A stretch of 37,292 nucleotides of DNA from a virus, in the IMG/VR virus record IMGVR_UViG_3300010296_000023, positions 1-37,292 of that record; one strand, given 5' to 3'. The translations under genes and the position numbers were made by a program. The notes under the pieces were generated by a model. That model worked only from the letters and a program-made list of their open reading frames with translations, was not told where the DNA came from and made no database searches. Positions 17,443-31,983 of this stretch are shown one piece after another (the first letter of the stretch is position 1; each line of letters begins with the position of its first letter).

Positions 17443-20400
17443 ATGGCAAATACTTTAACACAAACCCTATTTGAAACCAAATACAAAGATGATTTCAAAG
17501 ACAGTGATCACTATCACAGAATTTTGTTTAATAGTGGTAAGGTTCTCCAAGCAAGAGAGTTAACCCAACTACAAACTATTATCCAAAAACAAATCGAACG
17601 TTTTGGTACAAATATTTTTAAGGAAGGTGGCGCCGTTCTAGGTGGTGGTATTACACTTAACACCAGATACGAATTTGTAAAACTAGATACAACAACGAAT
17701 ACCTTACCGACAACACCCAATTCATTATTAGGGGTTACAATTACTGGTGCTACTTCCAGTATTATTGGTAAAATTGTAGAGGTCGTTCCTGCTGCAGGTG
17801 GTGACCCTGCCACAATCTATGTTGAATACACAAATACATCTGCTGGAGTTGCTGGAGCAACCACACCTATTAGATTCACTCCTGGTGAAAATCTTACAAA
17901 TTCAGTTACCCCTTTAACAGTACAATTAACAAATACCACAGCCAATCCTGCTATGGGTACTGGTACAAAGGCCTCAACAAATGAAGGTGTATTTTTTACC
18001 CAAGGCCATTTCGTTCAGGCAGATGCTCAAAGTAAAATTATTGCAAAATATTCATCAACTCCTTCACTTAATATTGGATTTAGAGTAGCCCAAAGAATTT
18101 TTACAGTGGATGATGATCAAGGGTTATATGATAATCAAGGTGCGTTACCAAATCTGACTGCGCCAGGTGCTGACCGTTATCGTATTGACATGACACTTGC
18201 ACTTGAATCAGAAGTTGATTCTGATGAAATATTTGTATTTTATGCAAAAACTCAAAATGGTAAGGTTATTGAAACCGTATCAACTGATGAATCATATAAT
18301 AAAATTGAAGACTTTAGTGCTACTCGTATTAAGGAAATTAATGGTGATTTTATTAAGCGACCATTTAAAATTAATTATGAACAACATCCTACAGATTCAG
18401 CAAATAAATATTCATTAAGAGTTTCACCTGGTCTTATATACCTAAATGGCTATAGAAATGAATATAATGGTTATTCATCTCTTGACGTAAATCGTGCTGA
18501 CGATACAGAAACAATTACCAATGATGTGTTATCAATTGGTATTGGTAACTATCTGCTTTGTGATAGTTCACTTGGTGTTCCAAATATTGATGAGTTTGAA
18601 CAATATAATCTAAAAGATGGTTACCGTAATAGCGGATCCACAATTGGTACTGCCCGAGTTAAATCCGTTGAAGAGGATGGAGCAAATATCCGTTATTATC
18701 TAATGGATATCCAAATGAATTCTGGTCAAGATTTCCGTAAGGTCCGTTCAATCGCTGTCGATGCCACAAACTATGCAAATCCAATTTTGGAAAATTCAAA
18801 TGCTGTATTAAAAGATAAAGCCAATAATACACTTCTTTTCGGATTCACACATCCTCGAGTTCAAGGTATTGTAAATACATCATATAATGTTTTGAGAAGG
18901 GATACAAGAACTACTGACGGTTCTGGTAATGCATCATTGCCTACACTATCAGGTGGTGAATTATATGCCGATACAACAGATTGGATTATTGCAAGAACAG
19001 ATACTGGAGCATTAATTACTCCAGCAATTGCACTATCTGGTGGTGGTACTGGCGCGTCTATTTCCGGTGCCCCTGCATCAACCAACCTTGAAATAATTTA
19101 CAAAAAATCTGTAAATGCAACTGCAAGAACTAAAACGATTACAAATACAACTGTAACTACTACGGTAACCACACCGGCAACTGGTGCACCATATGTTTCC
19201 CTCGGTAAGGCAGATATTACAGGTATTGAACGGGTTCGTTTGGTTGATTCAGACGGTATGGATATCCAGGCAAGATTTGTTCTTGATAATGGTCAAAGAG
19301 ATAATTTTTATGGTGTTGGCCGTTTGGTTCTTAAAGGTAATCAATCAGCGCCACCAGGTAATGTATTTGTTCGGTTTAATTATTACGCACATGGCGCATC
19401 TGGTGATTTCTTTGCTCCATCATCGTATCCATCACCATATAATAAAATTCCAAAATATACTGCAACGTCAGGTAGAACATATGATTTAAAGAATGTATTT
19501 GATTTCCGTTCTAGAAAGAATGATGCAGGTACTAACTTTAGTGCAGCAACTGCAAAATATAATCCACTTCCATCAAATACATCCCTCGTGACAGCAGATG
19601 TGACTTATTATCTACCTCGTTACGATAAACTGATTGCAACAAATCCGTTACAGTATCTTGAAGGGACTTCAAGCTTTAACCCACAATTCCCTGAAACACC
19701 AGAAGGTGCATTGGAATTATACCAAATTAAAATGAATGCAGGTTCCATTTCAGATAGTGATATGGAAATGAGAAAGGTTGAGGCAAAAGGGTTTACGATG
19801 AAAGACCTATCCAGACTTGAAGATAGACTGGATAATCTGGAAGAGGTAACTGCATTAAGTCTCCTTGAAATAGATCTTAAAAATTTCTCTGTATTGGATT
19901 CAAATGGTTTGGATCGTACCAAATCTGGTTTCCTTGTAGATAACTTTGTTGATCACCAATCATCTGATATTGACAATGTTGAATATCGTGCTTCTGTTGA
20001 TCCACAAAATAAAATATTACGGCCGCTATTTTCTGAAGATGAAGTAAGATTGATTTATGATTCAGGTCAATCAACTAATACTATTCTAAAAGGTGATAAT
20101 GTTTATATGAAATATGATCATGTATCATTTATCAAAAACGATATTGCCTCTGGTACTGAAAATATTAATCCATTTGCTGTTATTACCAACGAGGGTTATT
20201 CAGAATTATCTCCTTCCTCAGATCACTGGAAAGAAACCAAGGTTCGTCATACCAAAGTGGTAAGTGGTGGTACTCGTTTGGATAACCGTTCAAACCGTCT
20301 CTTTGGTAACTGGGGATGGAACTGGGGTGGTATTGCAGTAGGAACAAATGTAACTGGTGCAAGAACTGCTCAAGAAGGCAACTTCAATGTGACGCGGGTA

Positions 20401-22533
20401 AATCGTGTTGTATCTGAACAAACCATTCGTGAAGTAATTGACCAAAAAGTTGTTGATGTTGCATTAATCCCGTTCATGCGCTCTATTAAAATGGCATTCC
20501 GTGTGCAAGGTTTGAAACCTAATACACGTCATTATCCTTTCTTTGATGGTACATCGGTAGCGGATTGGGTTGACGGTACTGCATCATTTAGCCGTATTGG
20601 GGCAAGTAATGTTGCAGTAGGACGTCAACACAATCGTGCAACAAACCATCCGGATACTAGTTCGGCAGCTGATCGTGTATTGACATCAGATGCTGCAGGT
20701 AAAATTGAAGGTACCTTCTTTGTTCCAAATACCAATGCCATTCGGTTTAGGACTGGCACACGGGCATTCGAATTAATGGATGTGACCGGTGGTAATTCAG
20801 AATTTGCCACATCATTCTCAAAAGGTTATTTTGATGCAAATGGTGTACTTGAAACAGTAGACCGTACTGTAAAAGCTACTCGTCAGATTGCAATCAGATC
20901 TGTTGTAACTGCTCGGTCACGTATTAGTCCACCATTCCAAAATGATGATGATAAGAATACACCGGAACCAAATCCAAATGATCCGTTGGCACAATCATTC
21001 TTTGTAAGTAAACCAAATGGTGTGTTTATCACTAAGGTTAAAATTTACTTTAAAACAAAAGATGCCAATATTCCAGTTCAACTGCAGATCAGACCTATGA
21101 TTGCAGGTGTTCCAGATAATATCCCAGTTCCTGGTGCAGTAAAATTCTTAAATCCAGTAAATGTAAATGTATCAAATGATTCATTGACTGCCACAGAGTT
21201 TGAATTTGATGAGCCAGTATTCCTTAGTGGATTAACCGAATACGCAATTGTTCTTCTTGCTCAGTCAGTAGATTATAATGTCTATGTAGCTGAAACAGAA
21301 AAGTTTGAGGTTGGTTCAACTGCTCGTAAAGTTGCAAAACAACCTACACTTGGATCCCTATTCCTATCTCAGAACGGTTCAACCTGGACTCCGGCACAAA
21401 ATAAGGATATGAAATTTGATCTTCTAGCAGCTAAATTCAAGAATACATCTGCAGAAGTTATCCTTGAAAATCCTAAAATTCCTCTTGAATTATTACCTCA
21501 AGATCCATTTGAAGTAGACTCAGGTTCAACAACTGTTAAAGTTTCTCAGCCAAATCATGGTTTCATTGCCGGTGATACGGTTGTAATTAGTGGTTTGGAT
21601 AGTTCACAGTCATTTGGTAATGGTATGACTGGTAAGGGTCTAAATGGTTCTAGAACTATTGTGGCAGTAGATGAAAACTTCTATACGATCACTGCCGATA
21701 GTGCTGCAACTGATTCATCTACCTTTGGTGGTCTTGATGGACTTGCCACTCAAAATATCAAATATGAGATTTTATCTCCTAAGATTCAAACATTAATTCC
21801 TAAAAATACTGATATCACAATTGATGCAAAACTTACTGAAGGTAAATCTCTCGCTGGTAATGAAACACAATATACCAAGGCTGGATCATATACAAGTATT
21901 ATTCTGAACGAAGATAATTACTTCCTAACACCAAAGGTTCTTGCAAGTCACGAACGTGAGGCAAATGCCATGAGTGGTGCTAAATCAGCAACATTTAAAC
22001 TGAATCTGACTACGCAAGATAGTGATGTGGCTCCGGTAATCGATTTACAAAGAACTGGTATGTGGATGTTCCATAATGAAATTGATTTCCAGGATTCTGC
22101 TGGTTCAACTGGTGTCCTAATAAATGCCAATAGAAATAATCCAATCGACTATGCAGATGAAACTGATCCAAATGGTGGTTCACACTTATCAAAGCATATC
22201 GTAAAGCCAGTTATTCTTGAATCACCATCAGTAGGTGTTAAGGTATTACTATCTGCAAATAAACCATCAGTTGCTGAATTTGATGTCTACTATAAAGTTG
22301 CAACTGAAGATCAAAACTTTGATGATATGAATTGGACATACATTGCTTCTGAGGAACAAGTACAGAGTGATGAAAATCCATCCGTATTTAGAGATTACAC
22401 TTTCTTGGTTGGTGGTACCGGTGGATTTGTTGATCCGTTTGATAAGTTTATTCTTAAAATTGTAATGAAATCAAGAAGCAGTGCCTTGGTTCCTTCCTTT
22501 AAGGATTTAAGAGTAATTGCATTGGCGGTATAA
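17443..22533 (+). CDS. Giant DUF4815-type virion structural protein
   Basis: A 1696-aa protein, the largest gene here. The first 70 residues have 'SDHYHRILFNSGKVLQAREL', 'TQLQTIIQKQIERFGTNIF' and 'KEGGAVLGGG', the hallmark of the DUF4815 family in marine T4-like phages. The body is beta-rich, with fibre-like segments and a helical patch near 'KDLSRLEDRLDNLEEVTALS' (about residues 787-806). The section 'RVNRVVSEQTIREVIDQKVV' followed by 'DVALIPFMRSIKMAFRVQGL' (about 985-1030) is another recognisable core. The C-terminus resembles a carbohydrate-binding or jelly-roll region ('PLAQSFFVSKPNGVFITKVK' near 1180). It may be the wedge-arm protein replacing T4 gp7 or gp10, but that is inference from size and place. 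An AAGGGA site overlaps the gp8 stop. Confidence 0.72.
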   Translation: MANTLTQTLFETKYKDDFKDSDHYHRILFNSGKVLQARELTQLQTIIQKQIERFGTNIFKEGGAVLGGGITLNTRYEFVKLDTTTNTLPTTPNSLLGVTITGATSSIIGKIVEVVPAAGGDPATIYVEYTNTSAGVAGATTPIRFTPGENLTNSVTPLTVQLTNTTANPAMGTGTKASTNEGVFFTQGHFVQADAQSKIIAKYSSTPSLNIGFRVAQRIFTVDDDQGLYDNQGALPNLTAPGADRYRIDMTLALESEVDSDEIFVFYAKTQNGKVIETVSTDESYNKIEDFSATRIKEINGDFIKRPFKINYEQHPTDSANKYSLRVSPGLIYLNGYRNEYNGYSSLDVNRADDTETITNDVLSIGIGNYLLCDSSLGVPNIDEFEQYNLKDGYRNSGSTIGTARVKSVEEDGANIRYYLMDIQMNSGQDFRKVRSIAVDATNYANPILENSNAVLKDKANNTLLFGFTHPRVQGIVNTSYNVLRRDTRTTDGSGNASLPTLSGGELYADTTDWIIARTDTGALITPAIALSGGGTGASISGAPASTNLEIIYKKSVNATARTKTITNTTVTTTVTTPATGAPYVSLGKADITGIERVRLVDSDGMDIQARFVLDNGQRDNFYGVGRLVLKGNQSAPPGNVFVRFNYYAHGASGDFFAPSSYPSPYNKIPKYTATSGRTYDLKNVFDFRSRKNDAGTNFSAATAKYNPLPSNTSLVTADVTYYLPRYDKLIATNPLQYLEGTSSFNPQFPETPEGALELYQIKMNAGSISDSDMEMRKVEAKGFTMKDLSRLEDRLDNLEEVTALSLLEIDLKNFSVLDSNGLDRTKSGFLVDNFVDHQSSDIDNVEYRASVDPQNKILRPLFSEDEVRLIYDSGQSTNTILKGDNVYMKYDHVSFIKNDIASGTENINPFAVITNEGYSELSPSSDHWKETKVRHTKVVSGGTRLDNRSNRLFGNWGWNWGGIAVGTNVTGARTAQEGNFNVTRVNRVVSEQTIREVIDQKVVDVALIPFMRSIKMAFRVQGLKPNTRHYPFFDGTSVADWVDGTASFSRIGASNVAVGRQHNRATNHPDTSSAADRVLTSDAAGKIEGTFFVPNTNAIRFRTGTRAFELMDVTGGNSEFATSFSKGYFDANGVLETVDRTVKATRQIAIRSVVTARSRISPPFQNDDDKNTPEPNPNDPLAQSFFVSKPNGVFITKVKIYFKTKDANIPVQLQIRPMIAGVPDNIPVPGAVKFLNPVNVNVSNDSLTATEFEFDEPVFLSGLTEYAIVLLAQSVDYNVYVAETEKFEVGSTARKVAKQPTLGSLFLSQNGSTWTPAQNKDMKFDLLAAKFKNTSAEVILENPKIPLELLPQDPFEVDSGSTTVKVSQPNHGFIAGDTVVISGLDSSQSFGNGMTGKGLNGSRTIVAVDENFYTITADSAATDSSTFGGLDGLATQNIKYEILSPKIQTLIPKNTDITIDAKLTEGKSLAGNETQYTKAGSYTSIILNEDNYFLTPKVLASHEREANAMSGAKSATFKLNLTTQDSDVAPVIDLQRTGMWMFHNEIDFQDSAGSTGVLINANRNNPIDYADETDPNGGSHLSKHIVKPVILESPSVGVKVLLSANKPSVAEFDVYYKVATEDQNFDDMNWTYIASEEQVQSDENPSVFRDYTFLVGGTGGFVDPFDKFILKIVMKSRSSALVPSFKDLRVIALAV

Positions 22534-23650: not shown

Positions 23651-24337
23651 ATGACAAGAAAAGAAGAAATATTAACTAATGCTCCCATAGGTCAATGGGT
23701 TTCCAAAACCAACCTGATGTCGGATTACATTGGGGATCTTGATTTATTGGATTCTGCTTTTTTAGAATATGATTCCACTGCTGGTAAATCAAATGATTCC
23801 AATATTGTTATGTCCATTAATTATCTTTGGGATACTGTTGATAGTATTAACACTTTGTTATCAGCCGGTGTTCTTTCCCTTAAAAATCTTTTAGCAGATT
23901 CAGCAACTTTTCGTATCATTAGAGCAGGTATGTTAGTTGCTGATAGTGCAACAGTGGACAGTGCATATATTAGAAACCTAACGGTTTCAGATGTATTGGA
24001 TGTAGATAGTGCAGAATTTGATATAATCAATGTAAATGAAATCAATGTAGATTCTGGTGGAACACTCTTTATTGACAGTGCGACAGTAAATTATCTGAAT
24101 GCCCATTATATTCTAACTGACAGTGCTAAAATAAATAAACTGACAACAAAAAGTATTATTTCAGATAGCGCCACTATTGATAGTGCCTTTATTAATAATC
24201 TAACAATCGATTCATCATTTACCTTTGATAATAATAAATTTACAGATGCTCATTTACTTACAGTTAAGAATGAAGCAGGTACTATTGTCCTAGCAGGATA
24301 TATGTTATCAACGGATCCTAATATAGGAACTCCATAA
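23651..24337 (+). CDS. DSA-repeat virion protein, second of the pair
   Basis: A 228-aa protein homologous to the previous gene at its head (residues about 10-60) and end. The middle is a dense run of Asp-Ser-Ala units: ADSATFR, ADSATV, DSAYIRNL, VDSAEFDI, IDSATVNYL, TDSAKINKL, SDSATI, DSAFINNL and IDSSFTF. Units are about 10-20 residues apart with alternating hydrophobic positions, as in stacked beta coils. It is shorter than its neighbour because the linker between head and repeats is shorter. It follows after three bases and its stop overlaps the next start. Function is unknown beyond a structural role. Confidence 0.6.
   Translation: MTRKEEILTNAPIGQWVSKTNLMSDYIGDLDLLDSAFLEYDSTAGKSNDSNIVMSINYLWDTVDSINTLLSAGVLSLKNLLADSATFRIIRAGMLVADSATVDSAYIRNLTVSDVLDVDSAEFDIINVNEINVDSGGTLFIDSATVNYLNAHYILTDSAKINKLTTKSIISDSATIDSAFINNLTIDSSFTFDNNKFTDAHLLTVKNEAGTIVLAGYMLSTDPNIGTP
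23894..24230 (+). repeat. Asp-Ser-Ala coding repeats
   Basis: About nine imperfect units encoding [AVTIS]DSA[TEKYF][FVI], written with both GAT-AGT-GC and GAT-TCA/TCT-GC codons. The amino-acid motif is better conserved than the DNA, so selection on the protein rather than recent DNA duplication is suggested. Confidence 0.7.
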
Positions 24338-25344
24338 TGACAAATACCAGACCCTTTATTGAAGATGGTTCGACGGGGATTAGAGAATATGCCCTGGCTG
24401 AATATAATGCAATGCTCGGTAGGATTACTTATCTTTACCAGCAAAATCCATCTGTAACTTTATCAGTTGTTTCTAGTAACGGTAATATCTCTCCAAATAT
24501 GACGGATACCAGATATAAATCCGGTACAGCAGCTAGAAATACATCTGGCCCTTGGCCAGCAGTTACATCATATCCACCAGAAAGTTCAACAGGTGAACCA
24601 CAATTAGTTGTAGGTTCCACATATGATAAGATTAGTCAAACAGTAGGTTCACCAACCCCATTTCAAAATAGTGATTATCAGAGTCTTAATGTAAAACCTG
24701 TATGGCTAGAAACCGATGGTGTATTAAGAGAAATGAGTTTCGATAAAGTAAAATCATATTTTGTAGGACCAATTGCAGCTGCAATGCAATCGACCACACA
24801 AGCAGGAATACAGGCAGCAGGTTCATATTATATTTCTACAACCTCTTCCATAGCCGGATCAACAAATTTAGGAACAGTTTTTGTGGATACCGTTGCAAAC
24901 CTTTCTGGTTATCTTGCTTCAAATATTGGTGGTGCCGGGTCTGTTCAAGATGTATTTTCAACAACCACGTATTATCTTCAAAGAGTGGATTCAAATATAT
25001 CCGTACAGGGTAGTGGTTATAGAACACCACTGTGTATTGATTATTCTGCAAATAGAAAAAATCAACCTGGTGGATTAAGACATATGACATATGCAGAATT
25101 TGATGCTTTATTTGAACCGTTAATACAATGGGCCTTGCATAGTGAAGCAGGATATTCTTTAAGGTATAATGTTAACGGTAGTGGGACAAGACAGGGTACA
25201 CAAATAGCAAATAAACAAATGATTGGGGTGAGTGGAGCATATACAAAATATGCCGCATCTGCAAATGATTATCGTGCACAAGAATTTCCGAACGGTACTA
25301 TTGTCGTTCAGAATGGATTTAACCTTAATTTAGAAAGAACATAA
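24337..25344 (+). CDS. Conserved virion structural protein, function unknown
   Basis: A 335-aa protein. Landmarks are 'FIEDGSTGIREYALAEYNAM' (about residues 6-25), 'LGRITYLYQQNPSVTLSVV', a Ser/Thr/Gly/Pro-rich middle with 'RNTSGPWPAVTSYPPESSTG', and 'PLCIDYSANRKNQPGGLRHM' followed by 'TYAEFDALFEPLIQWAL' near the C-terminus. I recognise it only as the kind of protein that sits in this part of marine T4-like late operons. No domain with known function can be assigned. No signal peptide or membrane segment is evident. It overlaps the previous stop by TAATG and is one base from the next gene, so it is co-translated with the structural block. Confidence 0.55.
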   Translation: MTNTRPFIEDGSTGIREYALAEYNAMLGRITYLYQQNPSVTLSVVSSNGNISPNMTDTRYKSGTAARNTSGPWPAVTSYPPESSTGEPQLVVGSTYDKISQTVGSPTPFQNSDYQSLNVKPVWLETDGVLREMSFDKVKSYFVGPIAAAMQSTTQAGIQAAGSYYISTTSSIAGSTNLGTVFVDTVANLSGYLASNIGGAGSVQDVFSTTTYYLQRVDSNISVQGSGYRTPLCIDYSANRKNQPGGLRHMTYAEFDALFEPLIQWALHSEAGYSLRYNVNGSGTRQGTQIANKQMIGVSGAYTKYAASANDYRAQEFPNGTIVVQNGFNLNLERT

Positions 25345-25345
25345 A

Positions 25346-25852
25346 ATGGAAGGCCATAAATTTATAAAAGCCATGTTTGCAAACAATGAAAAGAATGTTG
25401 TTGAATCACATTGGCAAAATGAAGAAGATGATAATATAGTCAGAGTGGAATATTGTCCGGCAGAAGATGGCGATGAAGTATATGAAATGGTCAAGAAACA
25501 TATGGACATTGAAACTCTTCACGATGAGACATATGAACATATTAAAGCTCAGGATAGAGTATATCGTGAAGCAATTATATCTGTGGCAAAAGAAGAAGGA
25601 CTGGTTTGGGATATTCGCGATTTTGAATCGGATAATAAACTTGCAGATTCAATGAAAATTGCAACTAAAACTATATTTGAAACTGCAGATAATTCTCCAG
25701 AAGGTAAGAAAGAAAAATTGTTTTTATATAAACTTCAACTTTTTGAAGTCGAGGCAATTAAAGATTCAAAAAATACCAATTTAAAAAAGAAATTAAGACA
25801 GGCAAAAAGTATAATTGAAGCTACTAAGATTGCTTGTGAGTTTTATGTTTAA
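25346..25852 (+). CDS. Acidic helical hypothetical protein
   Basis: A 168-aa protein, rich in Glu, Asp and Lys and predicted almost all helical. Segments include 'FIKAMFANNEKNVVESHWQN', 'VRVEYCPAEDGDEVYEMVKK', 'DRVYREAIISVAKEEGLVWD' and 'KKLRQAKSIIEATKIACEFY'. No catalytic motif is visible. It is the last gene of the plus-strand structural run before the accessory cassette, one base after the previous stop. It could be an assembly chaperone for the preceding structural protein, but this is a guess from size, charge and place. Confidence 0.5.
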   Translation: MEGHKFIKAMFANNEKNVVESHWQNEEDDNIVRVEYCPAEDGDEVYEMVKKHMDIETLHDETYEHIKAQDRVYREAIISVAKEEGLVWDIRDFESDNKLADSMKIATKTIFETADNSPEGKKEKLFLYKLQLFEVEAIKDSKNTNLKKKLRQAKSIIEATKIACEFYV

Positions 25853-25871
25853 TAAGTAATTATTTAAAGTG

Positions 25872-27065
25872 ATGAAATGTTTAGTTCCCGACACGGGTAT
25901 CACCATCAATCCGATTGGTGAAATTGTATTATGTTGTGCTGGCGATAATGTGGCGATTGAGCACATTAGTAATATTGAAAATGTAAGTGATTTTTTCAAT
26001 TCAAAAATATATAATGAAATCAGAGATAAATTTAGAAAAAAAGAATTTCCAAAGCAATGCAATGTCTGCAAGGTTCATTGGAAAGCAGGCAGAATTGCAA
26101 GATTCGATTCTTATAATAGATTCGATTTTCCTACCTACAAAGAAGACCTCTCTAACTCAATTATTCCTATAAGATTTTTAGAAATTACTACTAGCAATAT
26201 TTGTAATCAAATGTGCGTTACATGTTCTGGTAAATACTCTTCTAAATGGGCGCCGGCTGAAGCATATGCAGTTCAAGTTGGACTCGATTGGAGAAACGAG
26301 AATCATAAGTTTCATACAAAACAGTACAAAATGACTGATGAAGATGTAGAAAAGATTTTACAGATAGTTCCTAGCTTACAACACCTAACTATTAAAGGTG
26401 GTGAACCATTCGCAGATCCAAACAATATAAAGATACTACAGAAGCTTGCGGATACAAATCCTAAGTGTCGGGTAGAGATTTGTACAAACTTTCAACTAGT
26501 AACTCAATCAGTAATTGAGTTATTACATAAGATTGATGAAGTGCACATCCAAGCAAGTATAGACGGTGTCGGTTCTCTTTACAATTGGATTAGAGGTGGT
26601 AACTTTGAAAAGACTGTCAATAATATAAACCGTTACTATAAATATGCTAAACGTAAGATAGTGATTGTCTCTACGGTATCGATTTACAACTGGATGCATC
26701 TACCAGAACTTATAGATTACTGGAAAAATATAGAAGGTGTTGAAAGAATTAGTATGGCAAATATCGTGACCTTTCCAAAATATTGTTCTCCATTATATCT
26801 ACCAGTCGACCAGATAGAAAAAGGAAAGAAAAACTTCTTTGACTATCTTGAGAGTTATGACTATGTAGAAAAACATGATATCTACAAGACAAACAATCTT
26901 ATGGTAAGTGGAATTGGTAATATGAGAAGTATAGAGCTGACAACAGATCCTAACGTAAAAGAGATAAGAAGAAGAATGTTAAAGTGGATAGACTTTTGCT
27001 TGATTGCTAGAATGAATGATGAAGATATATTTGAACTTGCACCGCACTTGAAAGAAATATTTTAA
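25872..27065 (+). CDS. Radical SAM enzyme with N-terminal SPASM/twitch-like cysteine module
   Basis: A 397-aa protein counted from the ATG at 25872; a GTG one codon earlier is less likely. The radical SAM cluster motif is C111-x3-C115-x2-C118 (ICNQMCVTC), with the SAM-contact motif GGEPF at 176-180. The first 70 residues look like a SPASM/twitch half: 'CLVPDTGITINPIGEIVLCC', 'HISNIENVSDFFNS' and 'EFPKQCNVC', giving C3, C21, C22, C63 and C66 for an auxiliary iron-sulfur cluster. SPASM modules normally follow the radical SAM core, so the order here is unusual. Such enzymes often modify peptides or sugars; the substrate is unknown. It faces the minus-strand glycosyltransferase cluster, 15 bases away. 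No ribosome-binding site stands out, and no late promoter lies directly upstream. Confidence 0.85.
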   Translation: MKCLVPDTGITINPIGEIVLCCAGDNVAIEHISNIENVSDFFNSKIYNEIRDKFRKKEFPKQCNVCKVHWKAGRIARFDSYNRFDFPTYKEDLSNSIIPIRFLEITTSNICNQMCVTCSGKYSSKWAPAEAYAVQVGLDWRNENHKFHTKQYKMTDEDVEKILQIVPSLQHLTIKGGEPFADPNNIKILQKLADTNPKCRVEICTNFQLVTQSVIELLHKIDEVHIQASIDGVGSLYNWIRGGNFEKTVNNINRYYKYAKRKIVIVSTVSIYNWMHLPELIDYWKNIEGVERISMANIVTFPKYCSPLYLPVDQIEKGKKNFFDYLESYDYVEKHDIYKTNNLMVSGIGNMRSIELTTDPNVKEIRRRMLKWIDFCLIARMNDEDIFELAPHLKEIF

Positions 27066-27080
27066 TTTGGCCACAGCATA

Positions 27081-27842
27081 TTATATTTTAAAATCCTTAT
27101 TTACTTGATGTTGAAAATAACATGCATCAGTAGAATATTTTATAAAATCATCTAGTATATAATTCCAAGGTTGTCCGATATTATTATTTGGTATTTTATA
27201 TTTTTCCAACATGTAAGTTAAAAAGACTTCGTTATTTCTTTTCCAACATGAACTCATTTCCTCAGGGTATAGATTATCTTCAATCGCATCAATAAATCTT
27301 TTTTCAGCTTCAGGTAATCTTTCAGAAAATTTTAGACTTTCGGCTGCTGTTTTATTCATACAGAACACACCAGTATTTGCTATATTATCGTTTCCTGTTA
27401 TATCATCCAAAAGTAACATTGCCTTTTTGCAAGATAGTTTAGCATATCTACCCATACCCGAAAAATTATTAAATCTGAGATTAGGTTTTACCCAACGTGA
27501 TACACCAATTAATAATTGATATACCGAAACATTATCTAAATTAAATGAATCAAATATAATCTTTTGTGTTTTTGGTATTACATCTAGATCCAAATAAAGA
27601 ACCTCATCATAGTGTTCCAATAATTTTTCTGTTTGTAGTATTTTATAAAATTGAACATCCACATAATTATTTTTGTCAGGTGTAAATAATTCATAATCTG
27701 AATTGCATATATGTGCATATTCTTTTTGTTTTTCAATAAGTCGGTCTTTGTAAAGATTAAATAATTTTGTTTTTTTATCTGATGCAGAGGGATGATCATC
27801 TACCAAGTCTGACCAAACACTAAAGATTATTCTTTTTGACAT
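27081..27842 (-). CDS. Glycosyltransferase-like protein (GT-A fold), last gene of the cluster
   Basis: A 253-aa protein when started at the ATG at 27842, which has a GGAAAG site five bases upstream; an earlier ATG at 27854 adds four residues. Motifs: 'KIIFSVW'-like opening strand (RIIFSVWSDLV), 'FYKILQTEKLLEHYDEVLYL', the metal/nucleotide-sugar DxD in 'LYLDLDVIP' (D85, D87) and 'NTGVFCMN'. 'GQPWNYILDDF' and a C-terminal 'CYFQHQVNK' are further family-like features; the His near the end may be a metal ligand. It resembles GT8-like or capsule-type transferases and is a paralogue of the upstream gene. It overlaps that gene's end by 23 bases. Donor and acceptor sugars are unknown. Confidence 0.72.
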   Translation of the reverse strand: MSKRIIFSVWSDLVDDHPSASDKKTKLFNLYKDRLIEKQKEYAHICNSDYELFTPDKNNYVDVQFYKILQTEKLLEHYDEVLYLDLDVIPKTQKIIFDSFNLDNVSVYQLLIGVSRWVKPNLRFNNFSGMGRYAKLSCKKAMLLLDDITGNDNIANTGVFCMNKTAAESLKFSERLPEAEKRFIDAIEDNLYPEEMSSCWKRNNEVFLTYMLEKYKIPNNNIGQPWNYILDDFIKYSTDACYFQHQVNKDFKI

Positions 27843-28623
27843 ATCTTTCCACATATTTAAAATTTTTGTTTATAACGTGTATAAGTTTGGGGTTACCTTT
27901 TATAGACTTATTATTTATTGTAAGAGCATAATGCCAATCCTCATCTAAATTTAAAAGGTTGACTTTATTTTTGATCATTTTATAACTGAATAAGGTTTCA
28001 TTATCATACCCAAACATGTTTGAAATAATATCAGGAAACATATCATCTTCAGTTACCAATTCATGCATATAATCTAAGTCATTTTCAAAGTTGTCAAAGT
28101 AGGCTAATTTTTTCAATTGTTCATTATTTGCTATAACGATTCCTGTATTATAAACATCATTTTCACCATCCATACCATTATAAATTAACATTGCCTTTGT
28201 ATTCCAATATTTTGCGGTTGGTGATCTTATTGTGGATAAGGCCTTACCTTCCCATTTGGTCATACGCCATTCAAATTCTTTCATATAGGATTCATGATTT
28301 ACCCGAACTGCTATTCCGTTTGATATATCAATATCAAATACACTTTCAGTAGTTACAGGAACAACATCAAAGTCAAAGTAGGCAACATTATCATATTTCT
28401 TGCTGTTTTCATATAGCAAATGTATTTTGTAAAAGTTTATTATATTATACTCATTGATATATGGTCTGTCCTTAAATGTTTCTTTATATTCTTTGTACTG
28501 ATCATCATCACCATATAGCTTATAATCTACTCCAATTGTTTGAGCATATTTCTCTTGTCTTTGTTTTAAAAAATCATAATGATCTTTTAGGTTTTCTGTT
28601 TCTTTATAAATTGAAAATATCAT
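27820..28623 (-). CDS. Glycosyltransferase-like protein (GT-A fold), paralogue of the next gene
   Basis: A 267-aa protein: 'IFSIYKETENLKDHYDF' opening, 'QEKYAQTIGVDYKLYGDDDQ', 'FYKIHLLYENSKKYDNVAYF', DxD in 'AYFDFDVVP' (D84, D86), 'VYNTGIVIANNEQLKKL', and 'PKLIHVINKNFKYV' at the end with a conserved His. The same order of motifs is found in the 27081-27842 gene, so the two probably arose by duplication and diverged strongly. The start overlaps the methyltransferase-like stop (ATGA), so translation is coupled. It is predicted cytoplasmic with no membrane segment. It would transfer a sugar to an unknown acceptor, such as a phage protein or a glycan. Confidence 0.72.
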   Translation of the reverse strand: MIFSIYKETENLKDHYDFLKQRQEKYAQTIGVDYKLYGDDDQYKEYKETFKDRPYINEYNIINFYKIHLLYENSKKYDNVAYFDFDVVPVTTESVFDIDISNGIAVRVNHESYMKEFEWRMTKWEGKALSTIRSPTAKYWNTKAMLIYNGMDGENDVYNTGIVIANNEQLKKLAYFDNFENDLDYMHELVTEDDMFPDIISNMFGYDNETLFSYKMIKNKVNLLNLDEDWHYALTINNKSIKGNPKLIHVINKNFKYVERYVKKNNL

Positions 28624-29249
28624 TTACCAATAACCATAAACCTATCATATTCTTTATTCCAGTTTTTTGTGCCAGAGTAATATATTTCCCTTAATGGTAA
28701 TTCTGATATAAAATGGTCAAGCGAGTCATGACAGTTTATGTGGCTATCTATATCATAATAATTATTTGACTGTAAACAAACAATTGCATCTTTATCTTTT
28801 TTTATTAACATTTCATTAATATCATCTTGTTCAATATGTTCACATGCCGTGCATATAATAATTTTATTTTTATTATTCCATGCCTCATCATTTACAAATG
28901 TGAGGCCATTATCTGTAATAAAATGCACCTTATCATGTATTACTAATTTTTCACCATATTCCCTACAGACTGGATCCAAATCATAATTCCATACGTCTCC
29001 ATCAAACTGCAATTCTTTTAATATATATGAAAGCAATCCATACCACCCACCAATTATTATACATGCGTCTTTATTTTTTAAATATGGTTGAAGCTCCTTT
29101 ACTGCCCACTCTTTATTTTCAAACTGTCCTTTACTTAAGGAATCAAGTATATCCTTCAGGCGAAAGATATCTATATCCTTTACATATTTTGATTTAATAT
29201 AAATTTCAGATAAAAGACTGACCACTCGATCAAAGAATAATTGTTGCAT
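28620..29249 (-). CDS. Class I SAM-dependent methyltransferase-like protein
   Basis: A 209-aa protein. After a helical N-terminus comes a Rossmann-type core: 'DACIIIGGWYGLLSYILKEL' (about residues 61-80, SAM-binding loop with GGWYG), 'VWNYDLDPVCREYG' (86-99, acidic residue D90 at the end of the second strand), 'VHFITDNG' and 'KIIICTACEHI' (fourth strand). This is the class I methyltransferase order, similar to small proteins often seen with phage glycosyltransferases. The catalytic target cannot be told. A non-methylating nucleotide-binding role is possible because the glycine loop is not standard GxGxG. It overlaps the preceding gene by 20 bases and the next by four. Confidence 0.62.
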   Translation of the reverse strand: MQQLFFDRVVSLLSEIYIKSKYVKDIDIFRLKDILDSLSKGQFENKEWAVKELQPYLKNKDACIIIGGWYGLLSYILKELQFDGDVWNYDLDPVCREYGEKLVIHDKVHFITDNGLTFVNDEAWNNKNKIIICTACEHIEQDDINEMLIKKDKDAIVCLQSNNYYDIDSHINCHDSLDHFISELPLREIYYSGTKNWNKEYDRFMVIGK

Positions 29250-29769
29250 TTATACCACTATCAAATGTTTTATAGTTAAATTTCTGATCCCAAATATATC
29301 TGTCAATGCCGGCATATTTTCTCGTATTATAATCTATATTCCTACTAAACACATCCCAATATTCTGTGTTTCTGCCAGAAGTCCAGGCCATAATTGAACT
29401 GTTTAATTTTGTTTCGTATGCATGAGATTCCCAATATAAATCATTCTTCCATTTATCCTTAATAAATGTTGGATATCTCCAATCTATAGATTCAATATAA
29501 GGAAAAGGGTTATTAATGATGTCGATATCGAGATCAAACAGGACGCAACGATTATCCAATATAAAGTCGTGTCTATATACATGAAGTTTATTCCACCATT
29601 TTGTAAGTTTAGGTTTCTTTGGTATGTCTATACAATCTATTATAACATCTTTTGCGTCTTCTGTAAAACAAAAAATAGGATAATCTGCATAGTGCATTAA
29701 TTTTTCCGCTTGTCGATTCACGTCATTTGCAGAATATTTTTTGCCATGTTTTAATAGTATTACGTTCAT
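29230..29769 (-). CDS. Glycosyltransferase-like protein, apparently short at the C-terminus
   Basis: A 179-aa protein and the first gene of the minus-strand cluster. Motifs: 'YSANDVNRQAEKLMHY' (about residues 12-27), 'IFCFTED', 'TKWWNKLHVYR' and a DxD-type 'VLFDLDIDIINNPFP' (D79-D83), then 'NSSIMAWTSG' and 'YAGIDRYIWDQK'. This is the pattern of a GT-A family seen in marine phages, where the protein normally continues well past the IDRYI segment. Here it stops about 20 residues later at 29230, so it may be truncated or a short variant. No clear ribosome-binding site is seen. It starts 38 bases from the divergently oriented gene at 29807. Confidence 0.62.
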   Translation of the reverse strand: MNVILLKHGKKYSANDVNRQAEKLMHYADYPIFCFTEDAKDVIIDCIDIPKKPKLTKWWNKLHVYRHDFILDNRCVLFDLDIDIINNPFPYIESIDWRYPTFIKDKWKNDLYWESHAYETKLNSSIMAWTSGRNTEYWDVFSRNIDYNTRKYAGIDRYIWDQKFNYKTFDSGINATIIL

Positions 29770-29784
29770 AAAATTATATATTAT

Positions 29785-29792
29785 TATAAATA
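29785..29792 (+). promoter_or_regulatory. T4-type late promoter box (TATAAATA) after the enzyme cassette
   Basis: An exact TATAAATA in the 37-base gap between the divergent glycosyltransferase and the BppU_N-like gene. Transcription would start near 29798, leaving only about nine leader bases before the ATG at 29807 and no good ribosome-binding site. It would restart virion-gene transcription after the inverted cassette. Confidence 0.55.
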
Positions 29793-29806: not shown

Positions 29807-30190
29807 ATGTCGAGTTACTTAGCATCGGATTGGTCCAAAATGGCAGAATACGAAAAATTTACAATAGATAAAGGCTCTGATATTGCGATTCAGTTAGATC
29901 TTACTGACGCATCTGGTAATCCCAAAAACCTTACCAATTACAGTGCAGCTGCTAAAATGAAGCGCAATTATAATAGCACTGATTCAGATACATTGTCATT
30001 TGCTGCGGCAATTAATACTCCCGAAACTGATGGTATCCTAACTCTTTCCTTGACAAATGCTCAAACAGATACTCTTAAAGTAGGCAACTACGTTTATGAT
30101 GCAGAAATCTCCTTTGTTGATTCAAACGGATCAACTGTTGTGGAGAGAATACTTGAAGGAAAAATTAGAGTTAGCCCATCGGTGACATAA
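29807..30190 (+). CDS. BppU_N-like baseplate/fibre domain protein
   Basis: A 127-aa protein starting MSSYLASDWSKMAEYEKF. A longer reading begins at 29741, but that extra stretch crosses the late promoter, so 29807 is preferred. The pattern 'GSDIAIQLDLTDASGNPKNL' followed by 'TNYSAAAKMKRNY', 'TDGILTLSLTNAQTDTLKVG', 'NYVYDAEISFVDSNG' and 'ILEGKIRVSPSVT' is the immunoglobulin-like beta-sandwich of BppU N-terminal-type domains, which attach receptor-binding proteins to baseplates in other phages. Alone in a gene, it could be an adaptor between baseplate and the fibres encoded next. The next start follows its stop directly. Confidence 0.65.
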   Translation: MSSYLASDWSKMAEYEKFTIDKGSDIAIQLDLTDASGNPKNLTNYSAAAKMKRNYNSTDSDTLSFAAAINTPETDGILTLSLTNAQTDTLKVGNYVYDAEISFVDSNGSTVVERILEGKIRVSPSVT

Positions 30191-30433
30191 ATGGCAACAA
30201 ATATTACACATATTAAAAAAATTACTATTGGCACACCTGTTAAAAAGGTTACAGGTGCTTCAGCACAAACTCTCGGCGATTTGACGGATGTTGAAATAAG
30301 CGGTGAAAGTAATGGTAACATGTTGGTATATAATGCTTCAACAGGTAAATTTCAATCTACCAATATTTTGACTGATATAATTCTTGCTGCTGGTGGGTTT
30401 GCCTCACTCGATTCTGCTGGAGGTGATTTCTAA
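30191..30433 (+). CDS. Small fibre-associated protein
   Basis: An 80-aa protein with the short unit '[20 protein letters not shown]' followed by '[10 protein letters not shown]', a recurrent motif of marine phage fibre proteins ('L.DV....G..L.Y...TGKF'). The end '[11 protein letters not shown]' echoes the DSA/GGGF ends of other fibre proteins in this window. It abuts the previous stop and overlaps the next start by TAATG. It is probably a structural accessory; no other function can be seen. Confidence 0.6.
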
Positions 30434-31983
30434 TGCCATCAAGAATTTTAATAAAAACCTCCAATAAAACACCTGTAATTACCACAGCATTAAATAATTC
30501 CAGAAGAATACTTTTAACTGGTGAATTTGGTTATACCTATACCACTGGTGATTCAGCAGGTGGTGATCGACTATTCATTGGTGCTGGTGGTAATACATCT
30601 GGTAGATCAAATGAAGTTCATGTAGTCGGTGGTAAATATTTTGTTGATATGCTAGACCACCCTCGTGGTCAACTTCACGAAAATGCCGCAATTATTACTG
30701 ACGCTAATAAAAAGATAAATCAACTTAAGGTTGATAATATCACCGTTGATGGCAATGAAATTAATACATCGTCTGGTAATCTTACCCTTAATCCAAATAG
30801 TGGTACCATTGATGCCAGTACATCGGCCATTACCAATGTAGTTGATCCATCAAATGCACAAGATGCTGCTACTAAAAATTATGTTGATACAAAAGATATT
30901 GTATTTGTTAGTGGTGATACCAATGCCGATGGAGCCGGTAATGTTCAAACTGGATCAAGTATTATTATCCGTGGTTCTTGGAATACAAATACCAAAAGAA
31001 CGGACATTTCTGGCAACTCCGTAAAGGTTGAGGTAAATGTAGATTCTGATTTACTTGGCCTTTCCAGATTAACAGTTGATAATATTGATGTTAATGGTAA
31101 TACCATTACAACCACTTCAGGTGATTTAACTCTTAATTCAACCGATGGTACAGTTATTATTGGTGGTAACCTACAAGTTGATGGTACAACTACTACAGTT
31201 AATTCTAATACACTTACCATTGATGATAAAAATATTACATTGGCAGATGGTGCCGCAAATGCTGCAGCTGCAGATTCCGCTGGTATTCATGTAACTGGCG
31301 CAAACGCGGATATTTTCTATAAATCAACACCAGATACTTGGAACTTTAACAAGAAGGTAGTGGCGCCTAATCTTGATATTAGTGGTAATCTAGTTGTTAC
31401 TGGTAACGTAACTGGTAATTATACTGGATTTGATTCAGATTTTACTCAAAAATCTACAAGTGATTTAAGTGAAGGTTCAAATTTATATTATACAACTGCC
31501 CGAGCAGATTCAGATTTTGATGTAAGACTTACCACAAAGACCACAGATAATCTTTCTGAAGGATCAAGTAACCTTTACTTTACAGATACAAGAGCAAGAT
31601 CAGCAGTAAGTATTACAGATGCTGGTGGTGACGGATCACTTGCCTATAATTCCGGAACAGGTGTATTTACCTATACTGGGCCAAGTGCAGCAGAAGTAAG
31701 AGCACATCTTAGTGCAACTGGAGATTTAACATATAATCAGTCAACAGGTGTATTTAGTATTGATGTTGAACAAGTTTACTCTAAGGCAAACTTTGATTCA
31801 GATTTACAAGATACCCTTGCTGCAGGTGAAGGTCTTGACCTATCATTTTCATCTGGAACATTAACCTTATCAGGTGAAAATGCAGACTCATCAAATAAAG
31901 GTATTGCATCTTTTGATGCTACCGATTTTACAGTAACAAGTGGAAACGTAGAATTAGCAACTATTGATTGCGGAACATATTAA
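30433..31983 (+). CDS. Tail fibre-like protein with [10 protein letters not shown] repeats
   Basis: A 516-aa protein. After a head with '[20 protein letters not shown]' come beta repeats: '[20 protein letters not shown]' and '[20 protein letters not shown]' (two copies of one unit), '[12 protein letters not shown]' (a fibre motif), '[20 protein letters not shown]', and '[19 protein letters not shown]' with a second '[20 protein letters not shown]'. The latter unit also occurs in the next protein. Two copies of 'YNSGTGVF' / '[10 protein letters not shown]' follow. The architecture is that of a long trimeric tail fibre or fibre segment. There is no chaperone or intramolecular peptidase motif visible. 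Receptor specificity cannot be read. Confidence 0.68.

Follow-up and report, generated by a model that had tools for sequence, protein, structure and literature searches.

The viral DNA analysed here (IMG/VR record IMGVR_UViG_3300010296_000023; the window, 37,292 nucleotides) is that of a marine T4-like phage and contains a five-gene cassette of radical SAM, glycosyltransferase and methyltransferase genes, which an earlier note had singled out. All five open reading frames were confirmed at the coordinates given there. The radical SAM gene (rSAM, 25872-27065, plus strand) encodes an N-terminal-twitch (N-twitch) radical SAM enzyme of 397 amino acids (aa), and converges on four minus-strand genes: GTa (27081-27854, 257 aa, DxD motif LDLDV) and GTb (27820-28623, 267 aa, motifs DFDV and NTG), both for GT8-like glycosyltransferases; MT (28620-29249, 209 aa), for a class-I S-adenosylmethionine (SAM)-dependent methyltransferase; and GTc (29230-29769, 179 aa, motif DLDID), for a short GT-A glycosyltransferase. 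The start of rSAM is placed at ATG 25872, because the proteins of its relatives begin with MKC; a GTG (25869) lies 3 bp upstream. All five genes had been described as overlapping, and this holds for the minus-strand genes (35 bp for GTa/GTb, 4 bp for GTb/MT and 20 bp for MT/GTc), but not for rSAM and GTa, which are separated by 15 bp. Our comparison with related loci establishes that these genes are part of a larger unit that also includes a probable fibre gene and its companion, and that rSAM is the exchangeable part of this unit.

Linkage of the cassette to a probable fibre gene

Immediately upstream of rSAM on the plus strand are fib (24337-25344, 335 aa), which is probably a tail-fibre or adhesin gene as judged from its position and composition, and its companion up1 (25346-25852, 168 aa). 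Approximately 200 loci were gathered by three profile searches of viral contigs, using rSAM, an alignment of fib and an alignment of GTc, and each gene was then profiled in them. In the GTc-anchored set (80 viral contigs, from related phages), MT lies within 300 bp of GTc at all 77 testable loci. Of the 31 loci with at least 7.5 kbp on each side, all contain fib, 30 contain up1 and 29 GTa/GTb; an N-twitch rSAM occurs in 22, VrlC in 15 and the fibre-assembly homologue dn1 in 11. Such a gene set far exceeds chance. The co-occurrence anticipated in the earlier note, as opposed to homologues scattered singly, is thus borne out for the glycosyltransferase and methyltransferase genes.

The search with the fib alignment, represented by the best 80 of 534 matches, provided 50 loci with at least 4.5 kbp downstream. 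At least two of GTc, MT and GTa/GTb are present in all 43 of these that have up1, and in none of the seven without it, which are mostly of one context type; up1 is the best single marker of the cassette. This pattern, together with the linkage of MT to GTc, establishes the true unit as fib-up1-GTc-MT-GTb/GTa. The five-gene set originally proposed therefore stands as to its glycosyltransferase/methyltransferase core, to which fib and up1 must be added, whereas rSAM is variable and also occurs free of the cassette in T4-like phages.

Gene order and strand vary widely across the loci, but membership is retained. The unit is likewise kept in differing genomic settings, either beside VrlC or, in L027, beside genes for an endonuclease and a sulfotransferase-like protein; in one group, exemplified by L012 and L027, GTb is a fused double gene and the order is fib-up1-rSAM(s)-GTc-MT-GT, at a distance from VrlC. 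Of 82 non-redundant loci, 47 have fib and GTc in the same direction, and the gaps are all 60 bp or shorter in 42 of the 47, so that a transcript shared with the virion gene is likely. The alignment of fib proteins (A5) exhibits a conserved C-terminal YRxQEFPxG motif, and fib has no match in Pfam or PHROG. A weak Nif11 match of up1 (E = 0.079) is under the cut-off, and the idea of up1 as a precursor of a ribosomally synthesised and post-translationally modified peptide (RiPP) is unsupported. In C48C1 (OQ984149, L053:11012-23030), a homologue of up1 is found in other company, with a 3347-aa fibre-like gene, a DxD protein resembling a glycosyltransferase and a 235-aa protein, followed by dn1. This homologue is the hypothetical gene at L053:21150-21611; the C48C1 gene annotated as 'tail assembly chaperone' is a different one.

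The enzymes and the radical SAM slot

The rSAM protein scores 210.3 bits against NF033640 (N_Twi_rSAM) over residues 3-397, above the curated cut-off of 170 bits, and also matches PF04055 (4e-14) and the N-terminal SPASM domain (4e-6). Its radical-cluster cysteines C111, C115 and C118 (CxxxCxxC) and its N-terminal auxiliary-cluster cysteines C3, C21, C63 and C66 are invariant across 15 relatives.

The gene occupies a segment (25847-27081, to which no strand is assigned) that is unlike the closest relatives of the window. The DNA of L048/L057 (one contig) is 77–78% identical to that of the window from VrlC to 25846 and from 27082 onward, and is unalignable between these points, where L048 contains instead a radical SAM gene that is unrelated and encodes a C-terminal SPASM domain. 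In L058 and L059 up1 abuts GTa, and the radical SAM gene is absent. Conversely, L003/L043 show 81% DNA identity to the window over 25858-27052, a stretch that stops at the edges of rSAM, with surroundings that are poorly or not alignable. Since the slot differs in close relatives and rSAM alone is common with distant ones, rSAM is exchanged as a separate unit while the core is conserved. Radical SAM genes of one or both types were detected in 61 of 80 non-redundant cassette loci, with up to five copies in all. In L041 (5584-6689) a radical SAM gene of the SPASM type is seemingly split into open reading frames of 235 and 133 aa. L048/L057 also lack approximately 174 bp inside GTa (window 27328-27501), so that their GTa protein, of 205 aa, has lost a part.

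GTa and GTb are paralogues, as had been supposed, with 25% identity (E = 8e-18). GTa matches PF01501 (GT8) with E = 0.0017 and 18.4 bits, under the Pfam gathering cut-off of 24.3, and a Pfam search gave no PF01501 match for GTb or GTc; eight of 21 members of the GTa/GTb family match it, the best with 5e-7. Because the glycosyltransferases of the window are under the cut-off, we name them GT8-like only. GTc has no detectable profile relation to GTa/GTb, and matches the PHROG glycosyltransferase family phrog_1962 (6e-7). Its AlphaFold2 model (predicted local distance difference test, pLDDT, 79) matched GT-A folds of the GT8/GT24 type in Foldseek (E = 5e-5, template modelling (TM) score around 0.5), among them LgtC and domain 1 of PBCV-1 A064R. 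The DxD motif is conserved in both glycosyltransferase family alignments (A1 and A3). Thus, GTa and GTb are GT8-like enzymes with DxD motifs, and GTc is a DxD enzyme with a GT-A fold, the fold being modelled for GTc only.

The AlphaFold2 model of MT (pLDDT 93) matched class-I methyltransferases in Foldseek (E around 2e-7, TM score around 0.6), and on this model MT is a class-I methyltransferase; the third GT-A-like gene and the methyltransferase-like gene of the earlier note are both backed in this way. Among the top fold matches of MT are BpumL, a peptide N-methyltransferase, and NTMT1, but as many as 981 structures match at E = 1e-3 or better, and the fold therefore gives no reading of the substrate. 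MT has no usable Pfam match; its alignment exhibits conserved GGWYG and D92 residues, and SAM binding and methyl transfer are predicted. Sequence searches of the PDB gave weak matches for all four families.

The genomic partners of these families outside the cassette are enzymes of sugar metabolism. Cassette-free relatives of rSAM with 58–62% identity are found in T4-like contigs (identified by gp23 in L038 and by UvsW in L040), adjoining genes for an A-type Fe-S carrier, a nucleoside diphosphate (NDP)-sugar epimerase, a uridine diphosphate (UDP)-sugar dehydrogenase and 2-oxoglutarate oxygenases. N-twitch radical SAM genes scored above the cut-off in two of 398 bacterial genomes, one of which contains four of them with WbsX, Wzt, Wzm, RmlD and RmlC in a polysaccharide cluster. 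A profile search of genome contigs with the rSAM alignment gave five matches, all weak and partial. Bacterial relatives of MT were found in six of the 398 genomes, and the one that was checked with Pfam adjoins three glycosyltransferases. These neighbourhoods of the rSAM and MT families, with the large Mosig cluster described below, suggest that sugars are the likely substrates of the chemistry. Two arrangements seen in this survey may be recorded: in L032, L038, L039 and L040 (for example, L040:5777-9678) the close rSAM relative follows UvsW and is followed by the A-type Fe-S carrier, the NDP-sugar epimerase and the UDP-sugar dehydrogenase; and a single bacterial frame (L232:8579-11143, minus strand), inside an O-polysaccharide cluster, comprises a Wzt ABC ATPase, a Wzt C-terminal domain and an N-twitch radical SAM enzyme.

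Possible target of the module and known systems

The gene identities, the linkage to fib and up1 and the exchange of rSAM are established, and from them, together with the sugar-related neighbourhoods and the precedents in other viruses given below, we infer, with a probability of roughly one half, that the cassette is a phage module for glycan assembly and tailoring which, late in infection, acts on the receptor-binding fibre of the phage itself or on another virion protein. Sugars from host nucleotide-sugar donors would be added in succession by three cytosolic GT-A enzymes; MT would O-methylate the sugar chain; and rSAM would change one sugar by radical chemistry, such as epimerisation, oxidation or deoxygenation. 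The up1 protein might hold or fold the fibre during modification. As relatives swap, multiply or lose the radical SAM gene, the final decoration would differ on the same core. More tentatively, the radical SAM slot might be a switch of fibre glycan chemistry, in which whole-gene exchange at a fixed site among marine T4-like phages alters the sugar decoration of the fibre, and hence binding or recognition, with the core kept. To our knowledge, this would be the first case of radical SAM enzymes tailoring a glycan of a virion. The suggestion in the earlier note of a pathway for modifying a virion protein or a host glycan is supported as a reading of the sequences.

Several points weigh against the fibre or another virion protein as the target. 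A module fitted to the fibre might just as well act on the receptor to which that fibre attaches. Comparison of the alignments revealed no fib residue conserved solely in cassette-bearing phages, hence no visible acceptor site. In the window, the glycosyltransferase and methyltransferase genes are antiparallel to the fibre genes, and a search of the window found no T4-late-type TATAAATA promoter on the minus strand for them. Furthermore, the loci counted above belong to related phages, and their counts are not independent.

A less likely alternative is that the module alters a surface glycan of the host (lipopolysaccharide (LPS) core or O-chain), masking or rebuilding the target of the fibre and thereby blocking superinfection or re-adsorption to debris. 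Synthesis or modification of the host O-chain was put forward for the island genes of pelagimyophages, including those of the GT8 type, by Zaragoza-Solas et al. 2020 (PMC7029224). Glycosyltransferases of LPS belong to GT8, among them LgtC, which the GTc model resembles in fold, bacterial relatives of rSAM lie inside an O-polysaccharide export cluster, and linkage to a fibre gene is equally predicted. However, Pfam detected neither a GtrA flippase nor a GtrB bactoprenol transferase, as in serotype conversion of the GtrABC type, among the cassette proteins or their neighbours, though LPS-core glycosyltransferases need no such membrane component; and the module often runs without gaps in the same direction as a virion gene, which points to late expression, at a stage where exclusion would bring less benefit. 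It is improbable that rSAM acts instead on protein, for example by introducing cross-links or epimerised residues into fib or up1, while sugar is added separately by the glycosyltransferases. Twitch/SPASM enzymes are often peptide maturases, rSAM is weakly similar to RiPP maturases in NCBIfam, and BpumL and NTMT1 are among the top folds of MT, yet these are two of the very numerous matches mentioned above; the partners outside the cassette are sugar-nucleotide enzymes, fib shows no residue signature, and no precursor-peptide gene was seen. That the genes are unrelated morons collected at a hypervariable site, without a common pathway, is very improbable: the host-recognition island is a known hotspot of variable genes (PMC7029224) and rSAM occurs on its own too, but the constant pairing of MT with GTc (77/77) and the presence of fib, up1 and GTa/GTb in 29–31 of the 31 long-flank loci, in many orientations, strongly disfavour it.

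If the fibre is indeed glycosylated by the module, a very abundant group of marine phages would depend for host recognition on a phage-made glycan, which predictions of host range based on fibre sequence would overlook. Exchange of radical SAM genes in one set position, while the other genes stay conserved, is reminiscent of serotype variation and offers a natural comparison set, and the module also supplies uncharacterised radical SAM enzymes of the N-twitch type whose likely targets are sugars. Since most of the homologues are present in the cultured phage Mosig, the idea is directly testable.

For pelagimyophages, a host-recognition island with cassettes of GT8 and radical SAM genes has already been reported, the cluster lying between VrlC and the neck gene gp14 (PMC7029224, available part). 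The present cassette resembles that cluster in its place after VrlC in the structural region, its fibre genes, its GT8-type glycosyltransferases and its radical SAM cassettes varying between close genomes; the window ends before gp14. In contrast, neither the fib-up1-GTc-MT-GTb/GTa unit nor the rSAM slot is singled out in that part of the paper. Thus, the setting, with its island, GT8 genes and radical SAM cassettes, is not new, whereas the unit bound to fib and up1 and the rSAM exchange slot appear to be undescribed in the open-licence literature, where, beyond PMC7029224, we found no virion-modifying cassette of radical SAM and glycosyltransferase genes.

Other systems share parts of this organization. 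In cluster O mycobacteriophages, three tandem glycosyltransferases and an O-methyltransferase are reported to modify the capsid and the tail tube (PMC11600133, citing Freeman 2023). Three glycosyltransferases and a methyltransferase beside structural genes (here fib and dn1) are common to both, but the targets there are the capsid and tail tube, the available part of that source mentions no radical SAM enzyme, and tblastn searches with GTa, GTb, GTc and MT gave no mycobacteriophage match at E = 1e-3. The chlorovirus PBCV-1 encodes GT-A and methyltransferase activities in A064R and A061L and has a methylated virion glycan, the glycosyltransferase-glycosyltransferase-methyltransferase domains of A064R serving the capsid glycan (PMC9614988, available part). 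In contrast to the cassette, this is a eukaryotic virus with fused domains and an N-glycan on its major capsid protein, and radical SAM enzymes are unmentioned in that part. A further case is the cluster of the Pelagibacter phage Mosig EXVC030M (MT647606, 56–74 kb), in which homologues of MT, GTb (46% identity), GTc, up1 and fib occur together, the fib homologue being QOI69061 (72526-73446). It is much larger, with aminotransferases, nitroreductases, a carbamoyltransferase, an epimerase and several MoaA-like enzymes, and neither tblastn nor NF033640 detected an N-twitch rSAM in it. From VrlC to the fibre-assembly gene, this region of the cultured phage (L002:1-15377, corresponding to MT647606 56425-71801) has the appearance of a very large sugar- or natural-product-like cluster.

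Flanking genes and base composition

The cassette is surrounded, as first described, by plus-strand virion genes, comprising a T4-like baseplate series (tail tube cap, hub and wedge proteins), the VrlC-like gene and fibre-like genes. The VrlC-like baseplate protein gene (17443-22533, plus strand), the left landmark of the host-recognition island, has tblastn identities of 33.5% to VrlC of Mosig, 32.9% to that of HTVC008M and 34.8% to C48C1. The right landmark of the insertion is dn1 (29807-30190, plus strand), a homologue of an L-shaped tail fibre assembly protein that matches phrog_3304 (3e-17) and phrog_1084 (8e-24). The TTG start (29741) of the open reading frame downstream of GTc is probably wrong; we moved the start of dn1 to ATG 29807, because relatives begin there, and the divergent gap between GTc and dn1 is then 37 bp. 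A T4-late-promoter-like TATAAATA (29785-29792, plus strand) lies 14 bp upstream of dn1, but is at best suggestive, since the window contains nine such matches compared with 6.3 by chance, which is not an excess. Candidate promoters for the minus-strand block were likewise rejected, with sigma-70-like and TATAAATA counts no higher than in shuffled sequence.

The G+C content of the cassette is 27–31%, compared with 33–40% in its flanks, so that the cluster is AT-richer, as the earlier note had observed. At codon positions 1 and 2 the G+C content is 29–33% in the four minus-strand genes, 36% in rSAM and 37–52% in most other genes, whereas at third positions it is 17–29% in the cassette genes, no lower than in others. 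The AT-richness, being confined to the first two positions, therefore reflects amino-acid composition and gives no support for recent import. The glycosyltransferase and methyltransferase genes are below fib in G+C content at 117 of 118 related loci, and this shared bias, with the normal third positions, rules out the AT-richness as a sign of foreign origin.

Elsewhere in the window, four minus-strand genes (424-2908) lie at the left end, ahead of the baseplate series, and two regions (23651-24337 and 30191-31983) encode fibre-like proteins rich in repeated DSA/VDSA motifs.

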